Source: Allorhizobium sonneratiae (GTDB taxonomy: Bacteria; Pseudomonadota; Alphaproteobacteria; Rhizobiales; Rhizobiaceae). From it: 64,000 bases of DNA. The notes below the pieces were generated by a model. It made no database searches and was not told the DNA's origin. It was given only the letters and a program-made list of their open reading frames with translations. The translations under genes and the position numbers were made by a program. Positions 5,682 through 39,108 of the stretch are shown in pieces (position 1 is the stretch's first letter; each line of letters opens with the position of its first letter). The DNA lies in the NCBI RefSeq assembly GCF_023700755.1, contig NZ_JAMKOJ010000002.1:126329-190328 (forward strand), written 5' to 3'.

Positions 5682-6059
5682 CTAGATCTGCATCTTGGTG
5701 ATGTCGAGATAGGCCGACACCAGCTTGTCTCTGAAGGCCATGGCAGTCTGCAGTGTGCGATCTGCGGCCATCACCGAATCCACCACTTCACGGGTGCTGA
5801 CCTTGCCCAGCATGCCCCCGATCGAATTCGTTTCCGCCGTCTTCAGCGAATCCATGGCATCGGTCATCATGCTGCCCATGACCTCTCCGAAAGAGGCGCC
5901 AGTGGCGGTGCCCGGCGTCGAATTCTGTGTCGTGACCCCTTGTGTGGAAAAGGTACCTGCACCAAGACCCAGCGATGCGGTTGTCGAAGAGGTACCACCT
6001 GTCTCGTCCGTCAGGCCCGAGGCGGCGAATGAACCGATTTTGCTGATTGTATCGATCAT
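5682..6059 (-). CDS. fliE: Flagellar rod/MS-ring junction protein FliE
   Basis: Small protein that joins the MS-ring to the rod and is needed for export of rod subunits. The product is 125 residues with a low-complexity Gly/Thr/Ser N-terminal half and the family C-terminus with [19 protein letters not shown] then [17 protein letters not shown]. The ATG at 6059 overlaps the flgC stop, so the genes are coupled. Confidence 0.95.
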
Positions 6060-26627: not shown

Positions 26628-26676
26628 AAAATGGTGCCCGGAGGCGGATTTGAACCACCGACACGCGGATTTTCAA
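26628..26676. repeat. Left attachment repeat (partial tRNA-Phe copy)
   Basis: Identical over 49 bases to 39029-39077. It copies the tRNA-Phe 3' half only (anticodon loop to CCA end) and then departs into unrelated sequence, so it is not a working tRNA gene. Confidence 0.93.
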
Positions 26677-26896: not shown

Positions 26897-27730
26897 CTAC
26901 CGGAAACCCCCACTGTAAAACCAGTCAGAAGAGGCCAAGGCTCGGTACATAGCAGTTTGCCAAGAATTTCTTGATGCCTCGGCACAGCTTTCGAAACGTA
27001 ATAACAACTCCGACTGAACCTGCGCCGCCGTCCCTCGCTCCAAAATTTTACCTAGGGCGTAGCGCATATTTGCTATCTCCACGGCGGAATGAGAAGCATA
27101 CAGTGCACCCAAACCAAATGTTTTAAAGTGAAGCTGTACTCGCTCGACTTTGATCTGAGGCCAATTCGCGGGTCCGCGGACCTGAAAACGTAAAGCTGCT
27201 GGCGATGTCATTTGCACATCAGCAAAAAGCCAATCAGCGTCATCTACCTCATCAAAGTACGGATGTAGCGTTTGTTCTACCTCGCTCTGGGGCTGAGCAT
27301 CGAGCTTTGCTTTGTTACAGTCACCACAGGAAGGCAGCAGATTAGCAGGCGTCACAACTAAAGCAGGATGGAGAGACTGCGCCAAGTAATGATCAAGGGT
27401 TCCTACCGTCCGTTGGCCACACATCGGACAAATATCGTTTTCTGGGAGTTTTTTTATTAAGTCGTAAATGGGGCGCGTTGTTTTACTTTTAGCAAATGTA
27501 CCTTTGTACACTCTTTTCATTTCATCAACGGTCACCTGACCGACACAGTCACTTTTTGGAATGTCGAAAAAGGCGTATCGATCAGCCGAATTGAGGTAAA
27601 CCTCTTCAGCCGTTTCTACCGCGTCGGCTAAATCGCCGACACGCCTCTTCAAGTCGTTATCTCTGATACTTGAGGCGCAGAGGACCACGATATCGCGCGC
27701 AGAAAATTTAATTGGACTGAGTTTACGCAT
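26897..27730 (-). CDS. HNH endonuclease, Septu PtuB-like
   Basis: Nuclease partner of the ATPase encoded 5 bases upstream. The 277-residue product has a Cys4-type HNH core at about 101-141: CPMC, DHYL with the catalytic-type His114, ANLLPSC with Asn130, and CGDCNKAK. In Septu, PtuB-type HNH proteins act with a PtuA ATPase against phages; the gene order and core motif fit, but identity is inferred. It is the distal gene of a two-gene operon and its base composition is lower in GC than the host genes. Confidence 0.82.
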   Translation of the reverse strand: MRKLSPIKFSARDIVVLCASSIRDNDLKRRVGDLADAVETAEEVYLNSADRYAFFDIPKSDCVGQVTVDEMKRVYKGTFAKSKTTRPIYDLIKKLPENDICPMCGQRTVGTLDHYLAQSLHPALVVTPANLLPSCGDCNKAKLDAQPQSEVEQTLHPYFDEVDDADWLFADVQMTSPAALRFQVRGPANWPQIKVERVQLHFKTFGLGALYASHSAVEIANMRYALGKILERGTAAQVQSELLLRFESCAEASRNSWQTAMYRALASSDWFYSGGFR

Positions 27731-27735
27731 TCACA

Positions 27736-29358
27736 TCACGCCTCAGCATCCCGCTCGGCGACCAAGGCTCGGATCACACCGCGAGCTTCCGCTCCCACTT
27801 GTCCAGCGAAGAAATCAATTGCCGCATCGTAGTCCAGCCCTCTAAAGTTTACGGCTTCGTCAAGCATCCTATGAAAGCCAGACTTCGTGATCTCGAAGCC
27901 AAAGACCTCTCGTGTTAAGACGCCTACATTTTCACCGAAGGTTTCAACTACGGGTCGCTCTGCTATCGACACTGCGCCAGAGCGACGAAGTTTCCAAGCG
28001 CAGGAGCGAGGCACCTCCTGTAGAACGACAGGCGAATGGGTAGCAACGATTGCAACCCCATTCCTTTTTACTAACAAATCAGAAAGCGCCCGGATAAACG
28101 CAGATAGTAGAGGTGGATGAAGGTGGCCTTCTGGTTCATCGAGCAGTACCAAAGTCCGTTCATCTACAAGTTCGACAAGTTTAGTTACTGTTAATAGAAC
28201 AATTGCATGCCCTGAACTGAGGCGTCTAAAAAGGCGAAATGCCTCTTCTTGCCAGACATCATCCCCGAGTTCCAGAAGAGAAGATACGTTTGCCTCGGCG
28301 AAAAGATCGTCTCCTTCCAGCGTTTTTACAGCCGCTGCCCAACGGTCTGATCGTAAACCTCTTCGACATATAGAAAAACTTGACTTAAAATCATTGGCCA
28401 GATCATTAGGGGTCTTTCGAGTTAAATACTCCTCCCCGTCTTCATCAGTTTTCCACTGAAGTAGGCCGACTTGGGCAGACCGAATAGGGTCTGATGGTAA
28501 TGGCCGAAGCTGCACGTCGTCGAATGCGCTAAAGGAAACTATTACCAGTCCAGTGAACGACCACTCTTCGCCTTCGTTTGCGTCTTCAACAATTCTTCCA
28601 ATGGCATCATCATCATTTTCTGGTTCCCGCTTTAATAGCGCGAGACTGATACCCCGCATACATCTAGTCTTACCAACACCATTTCGCCCGATCAGCACGT
28701 GCACATTAGTCGGAGGACGAGATTCAGGGACCACTTCAAATCGTATTTTTGGTGGCTCCACTTCTTCTGATTGCGAAGGAAAAATATAGTTGAATTTAAA
28801 CTCGGTGAGTGTCGCGTCTCCGTTAGCTAATCGGTGTAGTCGACCGCGTACGCTGGAGACACTCGTACTTCGAAGAACCGATGTAGTCATAACTGGTTCA
28901 TCTCGGACGGATTCGAATATATTCAAATCATAAGCACAGTCTCTTAGACCAATCAATATACGTTGCCGCATTGTAGCACTGAGACCGCTTAGAGTTTCAT
29001 AATAATCTTCTTCTTGTCCCAAAGAAAAAAAACGATCGTCTAGAGCGTCAAACTTTTTCTCTAAATCAGGCGACCGGACTCCTGGTCCTAATTCAACACC
29101 AGCCCCTGATGGCTTTAGGCCTATTTGACCGATCTTCACAGAACCCAGATGATGTTGCTCTGCGTTTTCATCAAACACCCAAAGAGTGAACATTGTTTGG
29201 TACTTAAACCAGTCATCCCAGCGATCTACCACCAAGAAAGCTTGATTTTTGGCATCGGGAGGCACTTCATTCCAGTTTTGTATAACAGAAAAGAACATAT
29301 CTTGGTTGACTACCATATTGCGCACTATTTCGAAGCTATTCAAATAGTACCCTGACAC
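27736..29358 (-). CDS. AAA/ABC-type ATPase, Septu PtuA-like with long N-terminal region
   Basis: Predicted sensor/energy subunit of the Septu-like module. The 540-residue product has Walker A GRNGVGKT at 224-231, an ABC-signature-like LSSGHA at about 380-385, Walker B LVLLDEPEGHLHP at 403-415 and H-loop ATHSP at 439-443, the pattern of the OLD/RecF-like AAA proteins. Unlike typical PtuA, about 215 residues precede Walker A; I recognise no known domain there. The first codon is GTG at 29358 with no clear ribosome site, so the start may lie further in (for example ATG at 29316). Confidence 0.82.
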   Translation of the reverse strand: MSGYYLNSFEIVRNMVVNQDMFFSVIQNWNEVPPDAKNQAFLVVDRWDDWFKYQTMFTLWVFDENAEQHHLGSVKIGQIGLKPSGAGVELGPGVRSPDLEKKFDALDDRFFSLGQEEDYYETLSGLSATMRQRILIGLRDCAYDLNIFESVRDEPVMTTSVLRSTSVSSVRGRLHRLANGDATLTEFKFNYIFPSQSEEVEPPKIRFEVVPESRPPTNVHVLIGRNGVGKTRCMRGISLALLKREPENDDDAIGRIVEDANEGEEWSFTGLVIVSFSAFDDVQLRPLPSDPIRSAQVGLLQWKTDEDGEEYLTRKTPNDLANDFKSSFSICRRGLRSDRWAAAVKTLEGDDLFAEANVSSLLELGDDVWQEEAFRLFRRLSSGHAIVLLTVTKLVELVDERTLVLLDEPEGHLHPPLLSAFIRALSDLLVKRNGVAIVATHSPVVLQEVPRSCAWKLRRSGAVSIAERPVVETFGENVGVLTREVFGFEITKSGFHRMLDEAVNFRGLDYDAAIDFFAGQVGAEARGVIRALVAERDAEA

Positions 29359-29386
29359 GCGGACGTTGCAATCTTATTGTTGCGTT

Positions 29387-30616
29387 ATGCGAAAAAAACT
29401 CACACCCAAACTTCTCGACAATCTCCCTCCCGCTGAAGGCAAGCGGTATGAGGTCCGTGACGAATTGGTCACTGGCCTACATATCCGCGTATCGAACGCG
29501 GGCGGAAAGGTCTGGTATCTGGCAACCCGGGTTGATGGCGTATCGCGCCGCATCAAACTCGGAACCTATCCAGTTCTGTCGCTAAAGGATGCGCGTGAAC
29601 AAGCGCAAATGATCCTGCGCGACATTCAATTGGGCACGTTCCAGCAACGCGACATTGAGCCAGAACCGCCGGTTTTGACACTTGGCGATGTCATACCTCA
29701 GTTTATCACACGATACGCCCAGCGGCAGACCAAAGACTGGAAAGGAACCGAGAGCATTTTGATGCGTATGAACGGCCTTCACGTGATGCCGATCAATGCC
29801 ATCAAGCGTGGCGACGTGACGCGTGAACTTGAACGTCTGATAAGCGATATCGGTGCAAAGGGAGGCAAAGGCACGCGGGCGAACCGTGGGCTGGCTGCGA
29901 TCAAGAAACTCTATTCTTGGTGCGTCGATCAGGGCATTGTCGAAAACTCGCCTGTAGTCGGTCTGAAGCCGCCTATCAAGGAGGAGTCGCGTGACCGTGT
30001 TCTGACCGATGACGAAATTATCGCCTATTGGAAGGGATGCGAGGCCGAAGGTTATCCCTTCGAGCAATTCGGTAAGCTGCTGTTGCTGACCGGACAACGC
30101 CGTGATGAGATCGCCTCCATGCGATGGTCGGAAATAGATATGCATCGTGGAACGTTGACGCTCAAAGCCGAGCGCACGAAAAACGGCTCTGCACATATCG
30201 TGCCGCTGTCTCGTCAGGCACTCGACATTCTGCGGTCTATCCCGCGTTTTCTTAATTCGGAATATGTCTTTACCTCAACCGGCAAAACACCGATTTCCGG
30301 CTTCGGTCGTTTCAAGGATCGTCTCGACACGTTCGTTGGGATGGATGCCGAGAATTGGCGGTTTCATGATGTCCGCCGTACTGTCGCAACCAATATGGCG
30401 ATCCTGAAGGTGCAACCGCACATCATCGAAGCTGTGCTGAACCACAAATCCGGGATAGTCTCCGGTGTGGCTTCCATCTACAATCGCCACGCGTATTTAG
30501 ACGAAAAACACGAGGCATTGCAGATATGGGGCGATTATGTCGAAAAACTTACCGCGCCCAAGGCCCCGCCTATTCGCCATGTATCGACAGGTGCCGAGAC
30601 CGTCGCCTACTCGTGA
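29387..30616 (+). CDS. Tyrosine recombinase (P4-type integrase)
   Basis: Integrates and excises the element at the tRNA-Phe gene. The product of about 409 residues has an N-terminal DUF4102-like arm-binding region (LTPKLLDNLPPAEGKRYEVR), a core-binding domain (about 98-190) and the catalytic domain with Arg238 (TGQRRDEI), His327-x-x-Arg330 (FHDVRRT), His353 (LNHKSG) and Tyr365 (YNRH). The start is the ATG at 29387; an in-frame TTG at 29366 is less likely. It diverges from the ATPase gene with only 28 bases between starts. Confidence 0.95.
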   Translation: MRKKLTPKLLDNLPPAEGKRYEVRDELVTGLHIRVSNAGGKVWYLATRVDGVSRRIKLGTYPVLSLKDAREQAQMILRDIQLGTFQQRDIEPEPPVLTLGDVIPQFITRYAQRQTKDWKGTESILMRMNGLHVMPINAIKRGDVTRELERLISDIGAKGGKGTRANRGLAAIKKLYSWCVDQGIVENSPVVGLKPPIKEESRDRVLTDDEIIAYWKGCEAEGYPFEQFGKLLLLTGQRRDEIASMRWSEIDMHRGTLTLKAERTKNGSAHIVPLSRQALDILRSIPRFLNSEYVFTSTGKTPISGFGRFKDRLDTFVGMDAENWRFHDVRRTVATNMAILKVQPHIIEAVLNHKSGIVSGVASIYNRHAYLDEKHEALQIWGDYVEKLTAPKAPPIRHVSTGAETVAYS

Positions 30617-34678: not shown

Positions 34679-34921
34679 GTGACCAAATCCACCCACACAC
34701 CTGAGTACCAGCGTCTCGTCGAACTCCTTATAGAGACACGGCGCGCTGCTCAATTGACCCAGCAGCAGGTGGCCGACCGGCTCGGCAAACCACAGTCCTA
34801 TGTGGCCAAGGTCGAAGGCGCGGAACGGCGGATAGACGTGCTGGAGTTTGCGGCGCTGGCGGAGGCTATGGGCAACAGTCCGACGGCGCTACTCGACAGG
34901 CTCCTGTCCGAACTCGGATGA
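34679..34921 (+). CDS. XRE-family transcriptional regulator
   Basis: The 80-residue product is one Cro/CI-type helix-turn-helix: LIETRRAAQLTQQQVADRLG then KPQSYVAKVEGAERRIDVLE. The start codon is GTG at 34679 with GGAG only 3 bases upstream, which would make for weak expression. It probably represses its own promoter and the divergent membrane gene. Confidence 0.85.
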   Translation: MTKSTHTPEYQRLVELLIETRRAAQLTQQQVADRLGKPQSYVAKVEGAERRIDVLEFAALAEAMGNSPTALLDRLLSELG

Positions 34922-35003
34922 TCCGAACGGCGCGGGATTTTCCCTGACAGCCGCTCAGACCTTGTCTTAATGAAAAGATCGTCTTGAACCGAAGGAGACG
35001 ATC

Positions 35004-35246
35004 ATGACCGACAAGGCCCCCGAAATCATCACCCTCAAGGCGCTGTGCGCTGAATTGAAGATCGACCCGAAGGAGGCACGAGAACGCCTGCGTGATGCTG
35101 TTCGCGACCCGAAGAAGTACCCGGAGCTGGCGAAGTCGCACAAGCCGCGTTCGCCTTGGCAGTGGGTGAAAGAATCGTCAGGCGAGAAGGAGGCGAAGCT
35201 TGTGCTCAAAACCACCGAGGTTTCAGACAGAAATCTAAAAAGCTAG
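35004..35246 (+). CDS. Small conserved protein, unknown function
   Basis: The 80-residue product begins with a short helical, possibly DNA-binding segment (ITLKALCAELKIDPKEARER) and has SPWQWVKESSGEKEAK near its end. A strong ribosome site AAGGAG lies 7 bases before the ATG. I cannot name it; the N-terminal pattern resembles winged-helix proteins of rhizobial plasmids and islands. Confidence 0.65.
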   Translation: MTDKAPEIITLKALCAELKIDPKEARERLRDAVRDPKKYPELAKSHKPRSPWQWVKESSGEKEAKLVLKTTEVSDRNLKS

Positions 35247-35401
35247 CTGGATAGCCCGAAGATGTGTTTGGTGCTCGAGTAGGCCAGCTAACTCGAGTTC
35301 GAGCCAGCGGTGAACGCAAGTGCCGACGATTTTCTTGTTGTGCTACGTTGTATTTCATTTCGGATTGTGTCAACTCGCAGTCCGCTCAAAGAGTGTGGGG
35401 T

Positions 35402-36649
35402 ATGACAACTAAACCGACCACGACGATTCGCATCGATGAAGACCTCAAGAGACGCGCCTGCGAGGTCTTCGACGATATTGGTATAAGTATGTCCGCCGCA
35501 GTTAATACCTTTCTCAAGGCGGTGGTTCGCGAGGGCACCATGCCGTTTGAAATTAAAATTGAGCGTCCGAAGTCAGTTTTCAAAACACGAAACGCGACAC
35601 TCAATAACGCATTCCTACTTAAAAAGGATGAATTCTATACGCAATACGATGACATATCCAAAGAAATTTCGATGTATAGAGGACACCTCAAGGGAAAGTC
35701 TATACTTTGCAACTGTGACGATCCTTTTGAATCAGCTTTTTTTCGCTTCTTCGCTGTGAATTTTGAGCAACTCGGCCTAGCGAAACTTGTTTCTACTTGC
35801 TATGCGGGTTCATCGCTCACCGGAAAAGAATATCCACTTGAGAACGCCACGGCTGCCTACAAAGCAGAGGTGACTGAGGTTCCCGACGAGCCTTTAGTCA
35901 AGGCAGACGGTTCCCTGGATCTCGAAAGCTTGTTCGCGATGCCTGGAAACTCCCTTATGCATCTTCATGGCGACGGCGATTTCCGGTCTGATGAATGTCG
36001 AGCTTTGCTTCAGGAAGCAGACATAATCGTAACTAATCCACCCTTCAGCCTTTTCCGAGAATACATTGGCCTTCTGACACACCATCAAAAGGGATTTATC
36101 ATCCTTGGAAACATGAATGCCGCTACGTATAGGGAAGTCTTTCCCTTATTTCGAGACAATTATGTCTGGTATGGTGAGACGATCCGCTCTGGTGATCGCA
36201 AATTTTACGTGCCGGACGATTACCCGTTAAACGCAGCAAACTGCGGTATGGATGATCAAGGCCGACGATTTATTCGCGTGAAGGGTGTGCGCTGGTTCAC
36301 CAACCTTGACATTAGGAGACGGCATAAGCCTTTAGCATTAACTCGTCACTACCGCGCTGAGGATTACCCAAAATACGAAAACTACGACGCAATTGAAGTC
36401 GGTCAGGTGCATAATATACCTGCTGACTACGACGGGATAATGGGTGTGCCGATTACGTTTTTAGACAAGTACAGCCCTGACCAATTCGAAATATTAATGC
36501 TTGCCAACGGAAATTCTCGCACCAATGTTTCCCCAGAAATACTTAAGTCTGTGGCATATAGAGCCCATTCCGAAGATAGAGGAGGTGTTGGTATTATCAG
36601 CGGCCGACGTGTCTACGCCCGCATCCTAATCCGGAGGAAACTCCGATGA
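35402..36649 (+). CDS. EcoRI-type adenine methyltransferase fused to a RelB/DinJ-like domain
   Basis: Modification enzyme of the restriction system, predicted to methylate adenine N6. Residues 1-52 match the RelB/DinJ antitoxin family: TTTIRIDEDLKRRACEVFDD, then SMSAAVNTFLKAVVREG and MPFEI; this is a ribbon-helix-helix DNA-binding fold. Residues about 75-415 match the EcoRI methylase family: DEFYTQYDDI, ILCNCDDPFES (cofactor-site region) and catalytic NPPF at 212-215. The ATG at 35402 follows GTGGGG; the frame opens earlier at 35264 without support. No YafQ-type toxin follows; the second methyltransferase starts 4 bases before this stop. Confidence 0.88.
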   Translation: MTTKPTTTIRIDEDLKRRACEVFDDIGISMSAAVNTFLKAVVREGTMPFEIKIERPKSVFKTRNATLNNAFLLKKDEFYTQYDDISKEISMYRGHLKGKSILCNCDDPFESAFFRFFAVNFEQLGLAKLVSTCYAGSSLTGKEYPLENATAAYKAEVTEVPDEPLVKADGSLDLESLFAMPGNSLMHLHGDGDFRSDECRALLQEADIIVTNPPFSLFREYIGLLTHHQKGFIILGNMNAATYREVFPLFRDNYVWYGETIRSGDRKFYVPDDYPLNAANCGMDDQGRRFIRVKGVRWFTNLDIRRRHKPLALTRHYRAEDYPKYENYDAIEVGQVHNIPADYDGIMGVPITFLDKYSPDQFEILMLANGNSRTNVSPEILKSVAYRAHSEDRGGVGIISGRRVYARILIRRKLR

Positions 36650-37482
36650 AAGACCCTCTGCGCGTGCCCTGCACTTATCAGGGCGGCAAACAGCGAGTAG
36701 CAGCTCAAATAGTCGACCGTCTTCTTGATGCAGCCCCAGGACCGAGCTCGCAGTTTTATGACCTGTGCTGCGGATCCGCGGCGATTTCAATCGAGCTGGT
36801 CAACCGAGGAGTAGACCCCTCAAGAATTTACATGCTCGACGTCAGTTCCTGGGGATGCTTTTGGTCCGCAATAGGTTCTGGCGAATTCAAAATTGATGTT
36901 TTTGACAAGTATCTAGCTGACTTACCGAGTGATAAACGTGAAATCAAAGCGCACATGGCAGCGCTATCGGCGCGGCCGCTGATCGAACACGAAGCGGAGC
37001 TTTATCCATTGCTTCAGGCCTGCTCTTTTGGCGGCAAGCAGATTTGGCGCAATGGGGAGCGTTGGGCGAATGCCTGCTTTAGGGACTATTGGGAGCCGAC
37101 AGCAACAAGCATCCGACGCAGCCCAGCAAATCCTATGCAGCCGTCTCCAGCAGAACTGCGACGCCGCATCAGCGCCCTCACAAATGGCATGAAAGGAGTC
37201 ACCTGCACTAAAGAAGACATCACCACTATCCTCAGCGCTCCACTTCACAGCGATGCCGTCGTTTACGTGGACCCTCCATATCAGAGTACAACTGGGTATG
37301 CGTTTCGATTCGATTTAGCCTCATTCATACGCCGCTTTCGCTATATGAATCACACACCGCTGTTTGTGTCCGAAGCAAAACCCCTCAACGACACAGCTCA
37401 GCTCCTTACATTTGGAGGCGCGAAAGGAGGTATTAGCGGCAGCAGACAAGTAAAACATCAAGAGTGGCTAAGTCGCTTCTAA
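36646..37482 (+). CDS. D12-class adenine-specific DNA methyltransferase
   Basis: Second modification enzyme, 278 residues. It has the alpha-class order: YQGGKQ (11-16), cofactor motif FYDLCCGSAAISIEL (37-51) and catalytic DPPY at 209-212. Two different adenine methyltransferases for one nuclease suggest an asymmetric target needing each strand methylated by its own enzyme. It overlaps the first methyltransferase by ATGA and meets the nuclease gene tail to tail with a 4-base overlap. Confidence 0.88.
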   Translation: MKDPLRVPCTYQGGKQRVAAQIVDRLLDAAPGPSSQFYDLCCGSAAISIELVNRGVDPSRIYMLDVSSWGCFWSAIGSGEFKIDVFDKYLADLPSDKREIKAHMAALSARPLIEHEAELYPLLQACSFGGKQIWRNGERWANACFRDYWEPTATSIRRSPANPMQPSPAELRRRISALTNGMKGVTCTKEDITTILSAPLHSDAVVYVDPPYQSTTGYAFRFDLASFIRRFRYMNHTPLFVSEAKPLNDTAQLLTFGGAKGGISGSRQVKHQEWLSRF

Positions 37483-38708
37483 ATAACTCCAAGCAACTTT
37501 GCAGACCTTGTCGAACCATTTCGCCCAACTATGCGTGATGCCGCCCTAAAATTTCCAATTTCGCCGCTTGAAAAAACAGACAAAAAGTAGTAGTTCTCAG
37601 AAATTCTTGTAAACGATGCGATCTTTCCTACCAAGAATTTCTCCTCCTCGCCTTTAGACCTGAAAATGTCGGTAATTTTCACGTTTCCTGCGCTAACACC
37701 CTTTATTTGAAGACGCCACGTTCCATTTGCATTTTCTCCTTCTGGAAAAAGTATCGTATTCTCGTAATAGTCAATGCCGTCAAAATTTAAGGTAATATCC
37801 TTACGTTGGGATGTATCCTCGGGATCCAAACCAAAGAACTCGACCGCACCGCGCATAAAGTTTTCTTTATCTGATTCGAAGGATGTTCCGGCTGGATCCC
37901 CAGACTCAATTAAAGACTTCTTCGATAGGTCGAGGATGTTGCGCGATCCTCCTGTCAATTTCCGTGTTTCAAACCATATAGTGCGGTCTTCACCAAATGA
38001 AGGAACTACAGTAGCCGCTTCGGAGTCATTAGGATCGATCTCCTTGCCGGCTTCCTGCGGCTTCGCGATCGCTGGCAGCTTTGCCGCTATGCCGTTGCCG
38101 AATAGACGCTCCTGAGGCCCACCCAACATAGCAGCCTTCGCCACACGAATTTGCTCGGACACCTCCTTGGCGACGTAACCATTTTCGAGGAGCTTATCTA
38201 TGTCGTCTTGTGTATTGATCGGCATGATCGAATCACCGAGCGAGTTGAGCTCTCCGATGTAGTCGCTAAGCCTCTTTTCCAATTCGGCCTTATCAGCGTT
38301 TGATTTGTCCCATTGAATAAATGCTGAGCTTTCGAAGTTGGTCCAAAGACCGCCACCGGTCAGGTTATGAGAGCCAACGACCACGAGCCCTTTGTCCGCT
38401 CCTAGAAACTGGTAAATTTTCACATGAAATGTTTGTCCCTTCTCAGTGTGTACGACGCTCAAAGAATCGGCATAGCGCAGCAGCGCCGTTAGGGCCTCAT
38501 ATGACGTTCCTCCAAGATCAACACCTACAAAGACATTCACAATTCCGCCCCGATCTCTGAACCGCTGCAAACAGTCTTTTATTCTGAGAATTCCACTGTT
38601 CTTCGCGAAGGCGACGGCGATGTTGAGAGTATGATAGTCTTGTGAATCAAGCAGTTCGATCAATCGATTCCCGAGCTGCCCGGTGAACGGCTGGTTCATA
38701 AAATCCAT
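37479..38708 (-). CDS. PLD-family restriction endonuclease (BfiI/NgoFVII-like)
   Basis: Predicted nuclease of the restriction system. The 409-residue product has an N-terminal phospholipase D-type domain with the catalytic set His95-x-Lys97 (FHVKIY), GSHNLTGGGL at 112-121 and downstream Asn124/Glu126. BfiI and NgoFVII use a dimer of such domains to cut DNA without metal ions. The C-terminal half (about 210-409) would be the target-recognition part, possibly B3-like, but I cannot confirm that. It converges with the two methyltransferase genes. Confidence 0.85.
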   Translation of the reverse strand: MDFMNQPFTGQLGNRLIELLDSQDYHTLNIAVAFAKNSGILRIKDCLQRFRDRGGIVNVFVGVDLGGTSYEALTALLRYADSLSVVHTEKGQTFHVKIYQFLGADKGLVVVGSHNLTGGGLWTNFESSAFIQWDKSNADKAELEKRLSDYIGELNSLGDSIMPINTQDDIDKLLENGYVAKEVSEQIRVAKAAMLGGPQERLFGNGIAAKLPAIAKPQEAGKEIDPNDSEAATVVPSFGEDRTIWFETRKLTGGSRNILDLSKKSLIESGDPAGTSFESDKENFMRGAVEFFGLDPEDTSQRKDITLNFDGIDYYENTILFPEGENANGTWRLQIKGVSAGNVKITDIFRSKGEEEKFLVGKIASFTRISENYYFLSVFSSGEIGNFRAASRIVGRNGSTRSAKLLGVI

Positions 38709-39028: not shown

Positions 39029-39077
39029 AAAATGGTGCCCGGAGGCGGATTTGAACCACCGACACGCGGATTTTCAA
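39029..39077. repeat. Right attachment repeat inside tRNA-Phe
   Basis: Exact 49-bp copy of 26628-26676. It covers the tRNA-Phe CCA end, T-arm, variable loop and the anticodon stem up to the GAA anticodon loop, the standard crossover place for tyrosine integrases. Confidence 0.93.
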
Positions 39078-39108
39078 TCCGCTGCTCTACCAACTGAGCT
39101 ATCCGGGC
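39033..39108 (-). tRNA. tRNA-Phe (GAA)
   Basis: Cloverleaf is complete: acceptor GCCCGGA/TCCGGGC, D-arm GCTCAGTTGGTAGAGC, anticodon arm GCGGATT-GAA-AATCCGC, T-arm with GGTTCGAATCC and encoded CCA. Length 76. Its 3' part serves as attachment site and is restored by the element. Confidence 0.98.

Follow-up and report, generated by a model that had tools for sequence, protein, structure and literature searches.

A gene in the window, the 64,000-nucleotide stretch of Allorhizobium sonneratiae DNA analysed here, encodes a RelB/DinJ-type ribbon–helix–helix (RHH) domain fused in frame to an EcoRI-type adenine methyltransferase. The RHH is probably (about 0.77) a built-in autorepressor of a restriction-modification system that is carried by a mobile element and has two methyltransferases and a BfiI-like nuclease. 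In the proposed mechanism, the fusion would be the first methyltransferase gene of this system. Its N-terminal RHH would dimerise and bind a palindrome-like operator at the promoter of the methyltransferase operon, and the accumulating methyltransferase would repress its own operon. The effect on the nuclease, if any, would be indirect and, speculatively, due to fewer transcripts entering its 3′ end. Promoter position, dimerisation, binding, repression and timing are what we infer in this mechanism. A methyltransferase acting as its own repressor is known; our searches gave no precedent for an adenine methyltransferase that carries an antitoxin-type RHH as the means.

There is a long history of comparing restriction-modification and toxin–antitoxin systems as addiction modules, and the fusion is probably an exchange of parts between the two, both of which serve bacteria in self-defence or addiction. 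In two bacterial classes, a restriction system contains an antitoxin piece, apparently together with its type of operator. If true, this would be the capture of a control cassette, with a restriction-modification system running on toxin–antitoxin wiring, and the fusion bears on the timing of mobile restriction systems in a new host. Coordinates of the features are given in Table 1.

Table 1. Features of the fusion locus and of the element that carries it (window positions).
Feature	Positions	Strand	Basis or remark
RelB/DinJ RHH – EcoRI-type adenine methyltransferase fusion, 415 aa	35402..36649	+	uninterrupted frame; Pfam and NCBIfam profiles
RHH domain, residues 1-57; predicted helices 13-26 and 30-44	35402..35572	+	profile, predicted structure
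EcoRI-type methyltransferase domain, residues 67-413, NPPF 212-215	35600..36640	+	Pfam, alignment
Putative operator GTGCTACGTTGTATTTCA	35340..35357	+	62 nt before start codon
D12-type DNA adenine methyltransferase	36646..37482	+	start overlaps fusion stop (ATGA)
PLD-family protein, likely restriction endonuclease	37479..38708	-	convergent, 4 bp overlap with D12 gene
49-bp direct repeat, one element end	26628..26676		
49-bp direct repeat, other element end	39029..39077		overlaps end of tRNA-Phe (39033-39108, minus)
Tyrosine-recombinase-like integrase of element	29366..30616	+	matches below curated cut-offs

Both halves of the fusion were recognised by family profiles. Residues 9-58 matched Pfam RelB (PF04221) with an E of 2.9e-11 over profile positions 6-55 of 82, above the cut-off, and residues 1-57 matched NCBIfam TIGR02384 (RelB_DinJ) with 56.2 bits (cut-off 45.65) over positions 1-56 of 85. 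Residues 67-413 matched EcoRI_methylase (PF13651) with an E of 6.7e-131 over nearly the whole family length, which together with the NPPF motif places the enzyme half in the EcoRI type, that of M.EcoRI, which methylates GAATTC. The original prediction of a RelB/DinJ domain in frame with an EcoRI-type methylase was therefore borne out, all three profiles being significant in one frame, and NPPF stands at residues 212-215 as predicted, invariant in both alignments made. Its RelB/DinJ domain of about 52 residues needed correction: the RHH is present, but about a third of the RelB profile, at its end, has no counterpart in the fusion. The C-terminal toxin-binding half of RelB/DinJ is absent from the fusion, where the profile match stops at position 55-56 of 82-85, and the head is thus the DNA-binding and dimerising half. 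The frame is open upstream as far as a GTG at 35264; ATG 35402 is the probable start, in agreement with the starts of the relatives.

A PDB sequence comparison of the fusion head only gave DinJ (9lew, 4q2u, 4ml0) and, weakly, RelB. Arg10 of the fusion aligned without gaps with Arg10 of E. coli DinJ and was invariant in 11/11 fused proteins. According to the accessible part of PMC9592637, R10 matters for DNA binding, and the equivalent arginine is required in L. paracasei. The same source describes a 20-bp inverted repeat covering the −10 box as the binding site of E. coli DinJ, and states that the RHH of DinJ arises through dimerisation; the head is accordingly expected to dimerise the fused enzyme. 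In the predicted structure of the fusion, the head has two helices, most of the enzyme was well predicted, and linker 46-76 was of low confidence. The fold search with this model gave no match at E < 0.001; a DinJ chain was found with a probability of 0.98 (E 0.019) and a RelB chain with 0.95 (E 0.15).

The search of genome contigs, viral contigs and plasmids returned at least ten further full-length fusions, 68-77% identical to the window protein, in Alpha- and Gammaproteobacteria, on a plasmid and on viral contigs. They belong to Psychrobacter plasmid pA3H10 (L002, fusion 73% identical), Rhizobiales IMCC20636 (L004), a strain labelled E. coli (L005), Brenneria (L006), Alloalcanivorax (L007), Ferrovibrio (L008), Pseudidiomarina (L009, GTG start at 5977), and three viral contigs (L084, L085, L146). 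The homologues therefore do not all start after residue ~60, and a sequencing error joining two genes is ruled out because the identical joint is carried by eleven sequences. The module around the strain labelled E. coli is not common in that species, as 3.6 kb around it was unmatched in 20,395 E. coli records.

The EcoRI-type set consisted of the best 80 of 574 genome-contig relatives, all 40 viral ones, one relative genome and one plasmid; the plasmid search covered, among the matches listed, 40 of 80 records. Each of the first 123 loci, L003 excepted, contributed one ORF, and L146 was added later. RHH profile matches were present in 10/122 of these ORFs, namely nine relatives and the window copy (L001), and the other 112 showed none even at E 10. 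The fusion is thus the minority form among the EcoRI-type ORFs compared. Its members formed one fully supported clade in a tree of 56 enzymes calculated with the head left out. A viral-contig scan with the RHH alone gave fused loci only, and a scan with a Shewanella RelB gave one match. No EcoRI-type match was found in 35 other genomes of the same genus, some of them incomplete, which suggests that Allorhizobium sonneratiae acquired the gene recently.

For all pairs of the 11 fused genes, pN/pS was 0.138 in residues 1-51 and 0.152 in the enzyme, compared with 0.585 in the linker, as raw proportions with synonymous sites near saturation. The first 51 residues contain 27 that are invariant in the 11 sequences, and linker identity across the fused proteins was 43% on average. 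Purifying selection on the RHH is comparable to that on the enzyme, and the linker is poorly conserved. These values bear on the possibility that the RHH is an evolutionary relic, in which the start of an antitoxin gene was captured as a donor of promoter and start codon and the domain is now functionless. The operator and the RHH do both resemble pieces of a RelB operon; however, the pN/pS of the head and its 27 invariant residues make a relic highly improbable.

The fusion is accompanied by two further genes. The fusion, the D12 gene (67-79% identical), and the convergent PLD gene (59-65%) were together at 9/9 other loci compared, with the PLD gene of L084 ending with the contig. At the tenth fused relative (L146/L195), the D12 protein was 76% identical and the PLD protein distant at 26%. 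This PLD gene (L195 5958-6998, minus strand) stands apart though both methyltransferases are 76% identical to those of the window, and the nuclease may have been replaced or have diverged there. The junction of fusion and D12 is an ATGA overlap in 9/11 loci, TTGA in L004, and TGATG in L007. The Pfam match of the D12 protein was partial. Among viral contigs the D12 protein had 34 relatives, just three of which, the fused contigs, hold the fusion and the PLD gene alongside; D12 alone is therefore no pointer to this system.

The Pfam match of the PLD protein was below the cut-off, and its HxK...GSxN motif was present in 8/8 sequences. Its structural model was of low confidence (pLDDT 60.5). The best PDB match of this model was BfiI, a PLD-type, type IIS restriction enzyme (E 3.3e-11, TM 0.34, rmsd 17.9 over 414 columns), followed by SauUSI with an rmsd of 3.1 over 166 columns; the C-terminal recognition domain of BfiI (3zi5) matched weakly (E 6.9e-3). 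On this low-confidence model the PLD protein may be BfiI-like, and we infer that it is likely the restriction enzyme of the module. Five of seven distant plasmid relatives of the PLD protein besides pA3H10 were compared, two from Burkholderia (25% coverage) being left out, and 4/5 had an annotated DNA methyltransferase no more than about 4 kb away. On a Rhizobium anhuiense plasmid, two methyltransferase genes were present with the PLD gene tail to tail with them, and the Halobacterium plasmid relative had no methyltransferase annotated within the stretch compared. Type IIS enzymes usually come with two methyltransferases, one per strand, as stated in the accessible part of PMC4081073. The module looks like a three-gene restriction-modification system.

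The same three genes in identical order are found on Psychrobacter plasmid pA3H10. In the parts of PMC10457243 available, this is called a putative type II restriction-modification system, and the fusion relative was tested in 2023 as a putative methyltransferase. Cloned one at a time in E. coli, the two pA3H10 methyltransferases did not protect DNA, and the fusion relative alone gave no protection against EcoRI; the authors supposed that both enzymes are required (PMC10457243). Enzyme activity in this clade is therefore putative. The original prediction had known of no described enzyme with this architecture. A relative has thus been published, but RHH and RelB are not named in it, and the accessible description contains no operator or BfiI either (PMC10457243).

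Across the 160 nt that precede the fused genes, little aligned apart from the motif GTGCTACRWTGTA. An operator-like palindrome (TGTGCTACATTGTA...) lay upstream of the fusion in 11/11 loci, with at least one exact copy of GTGCTACRWTGTA in each, and shuffled upstreams gave a mean of 0.008 loci with one mismatch allowed. The centre base apart, the site is fully palindromic in Psychrobacter (TGTGCTACAATGTAGCACA) and Pseudidiomarina (GTGCTACATTGTAGCAC). In its own genome the motif had one perfect match, the window site at 35340-35357, and one further site with 3 mismatches that was no better than the backward control. Among the relatives listed, 0/109 unfused loci had GTGCTACRWTGTA at ≤1 mismatch, 2 had it at two mismatches, and 13 at three or fewer; L077, L117, and L119 were excluded from this count because their alignments begin late. 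The conserved palindrome is the putative operator of the fusion gene.

Two close copies, 26-28 nt apart, were present in five fused loci, with a mismatch in one of the ten copies. A second copy in L009, third-rate with 3 mismatches, is outside this five-locus count. The distance from TTGnnn in copy 1 to TACnTT in copy 2 was 16-18 nt in 5/5 two-copy loci, which is a sigma-70 spacing. In the window a single copy is intact, and the sequence 27 nt downstream of it, at the position of the relatives' second copy, is far from consensus as read by eye. A consensus promoter scan gave no plus-strand promoter upstream in the window, L007, or L146.

The core of the site, GCTACRWTGTAGC, was also found before stand-alone RelB/DinJ genes. 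Exact cores were present in 3/41 upstreams, cores with ≤2 mismatches in 6/41, and with ≤3 mismatches in 11/41, compared with shuffle means of 0.00, 0.11, and 1.31, respectively; an example is TTGTGCTACAATGTAGCTCAA before the RelB gene of L156. The 41 upstreams came from an even draw of 142 class genomes (23, with starts set by script) and from plasmids (18). Random windows of the same RelB loci gave 4/820 exact and 7/820 with ≤2 mismatches, a control that could contain the sites themselves. The remaining 35/41 stand-alone RelB genes had no GCTACRWTGTAGC site within 2 mismatches. The palindrome GTGCTACRWTGTAGCAC was also seen without RelB: 14/20 exact viral-contig matches adjoined integrase-like or dus-like genes by eye, one of each confirmed by Pfam, and it lies between or before such genes in L127, L128, L133, L135, L137, L141, and others.

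The upstream regions of 9 nuclease genes (200 nt each) contained no site within 3 mismatches, the best having 4-6 mismatches forward and 4-5 in reverse. The nuclease gene as a target of the same operator was rejected on these values, and direct control of restriction is not indicated. We also compared 993 frames of ≥45 codons in the flanks (up to 6 kb per side) of the 11 fused loci. The twelve frames with the widest sharing each have a relative at a single other locus, which leaves the fused loci without a further regulator in common. Besides the second methyltransferase and the nuclease, the fusion is the sole DNA-binding protein common to the 11 loci. A Cro-type HTH gene and an 80-residue ORF lie just upstream of the fusion in the window (34679-35246, plus strand). 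Neither was found in the nine other fused loci compared, and the HTH gene (34679-34921), considered as a conserved regulator, was rejected on this ground.

The RHH could instead serve the enzyme, by dimerising it or holding it on DNA, and so raise its affinity or alter its target, the motif being bound otherwise. The absence of an RHH from 112/122 EcoRI-type ORFs fits this, the domain being an addition able to change enzyme behaviour, and so does the low-confidence prediction of linker 46-76, as if it were flexible. Against it, the motif is tied to the fusion (11/11 fused, 0/109 unfused) and resembles sites before some RelB genes, and the flanks of the fused loci share no further gene whose product might bind it, a host factor being possible. 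We consider this explanation unlikely.

The original prediction had offered two functions for the head, and one of them was a tie between restriction and a toxin partner elsewhere. The RHH would then still neutralise or sense a RelE/YafQ-type toxin. The head scores above the RelB/DinJ cut-off, and the Psychrobacter copy of the fusion is annotated as an antitoxin, which illustrates how single-domain annotation can mislead. However, the RelB match ends before the toxin-binding half, the linker that follows is poorly conserved (43% on average), and no RelE/StbE family gene was found in the own genome (94% complete), with a control positive in E. coli and three others. YafQ by PF15738 was not found in the own genome either, with a weak control that missed E. 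coli, nor was another RelB (94% complete). No toxin gene lies next to the fusion; the D12 methyltransferase adjoins it in the window and ten relatives. Toxin coupling was therefore rejected, with next to no chance left to it.

The other function, a built-in controller, is supported by comparison: at up to one mismatch the putative operator accompanies the fused form only, the arginine predicted to contact DNA is conserved, and small DNA-binding genes stand before some unfused enzymes. In L028 (Sulfuricurvum) the D12 protein was 72% and the PLD protein 57% identical, the unfused EcoRI-type enzyme (52%) begins at the core, and a separate 79-residue DUF6471 gene (E 3.4e-19) lies 2 nt upstream of the methyltransferase. 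DUF6471 was not found in the open-access papers looked at. In L021 an 89-residue ORF, with no Pfam match above cut-off, overlaps the enzyme start by 8 nt; its D12 gene was 75% identical over 92 residues before a stretch of N, and no nuclease gene was seen in the 3.5-kb contig.

Co-directional upstream ORFs of 50-160 residues were present in 33/106 unfused loci with enough upstream sequence. Twelve of the 33, picked by eye, were scanned with profiles; many of the other 21 resemble chance ORFs. Among the twelve, a Cro-type HTH was above cut-off in L036, L046, L066, L073, and L099, DUF6471 was found in L028, RHH-like matches below Pfam cut-offs in L011, L018, and L022, and three had no match above cut-off. 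Besides L028, small HTH or RHH-like ORFs thus abut or overlap 8 unfused methyltransferases. The RHH-like ORFs of L011, L018, and L022 have 50-54 residues, are 82-84% identical to that of L011, and overlap the starts of unfused EcoRI-type methyltransferases. Small DNA-binding genes thus recur before methyltransferases, a position into which the fused head fits.

Among unfused plasmid relatives of the head, the best (60%) was a 65-residue, RHH-only RelB on a Collinsella plasmid, which ends directly 5′ of an N-6 DNA methylase gene (L147 2486-5144, in an IS-rich stretch). By its arrangement this pair appears to be an unfused analogue with another methylase type, and no operator of the GTGCTACRWTGTA kind was found upstream of the Collinsella RelB. 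Somewhat short of even odds, we suggest that the RelB/DinJ promoter, operator and RHH were captured in one event, the methyltransferase replacing the toxin-binding half, and that controllers of several kinds (RHH, Cro-type HTH, DUF6471) can be plugged into a slot ahead of EcoRI-type methyltransferases, either fused to the enzyme or as genes of their own. In another viral locus (L117 3537-5570, IMG/VR 3300028454_000004), the EcoRI-type methyltransferase is split at NPPFS by about 350 in-frame residues; the insert resembles an intein by eye, and Pfam named the methylase parts only.

The EcoRII, SsoII, Ecl18kI, and ScrFI methyltransferases are cytosine-5 enzymes, and they repress themselves with an N-terminal DNA-binding domain. 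Their head is an HTH, whereas here an antitoxin-type RHH, for which DNA binding is predicted, stands on an EcoRI-type adenine methyltransferase. Autorepression is established for methyltransferases with an N-terminal HTH, according to the accessible part of PMC3874152. With RelB/DinJ antitoxins the fusion shares the RHH sequence, the conserved arginine, and an inverted-repeat operator, putative in the fusion. Unlike DinJ–YafQ, it has no toxin-binding half and no adjacent toxin gene, and an enzyme follows the RHH. NsoJS138I, a fusion of a C protein and a restriction enzyme, also joins a regulator to a restriction-modification enzyme (PMC3850674, accessible part); the C protein is on the nuclease there, and the RHH is on the methyltransferase in the window. 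RptR (2025), a separate small repressor of type I systems, binds short palindromes over the −10 box in the part of PMC12255303 available, which is the same logic in an unrelated protein. No published description of the fusion was found in the open-access literature, subscription journals and REBASE being outside the scope, and the accessible texts of that literature contained no account of the RHH head, of the operator and its link with the fusion, of the BfiI-like nuclease, or of the controller slot.

The module is carried on a 12.4-kb tRNA-Phe element. Near its other end (26897-29358, minus strand) lie genes for an HNH-like protein, recognised by eye, and an AAA ATPase. This pair matched PADLOC PDC-M01B (E 1.2e-97) and PDC-M01A/PtuA (E 2.1e-194) and is Septu-like, which suggests a second defence module on the element. 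Outside the module, shared flank frames in the twelve best-shared rows were found between the window and L004 only, all of them downstream, as if the two elements had been inserted at the same chromosomal place.
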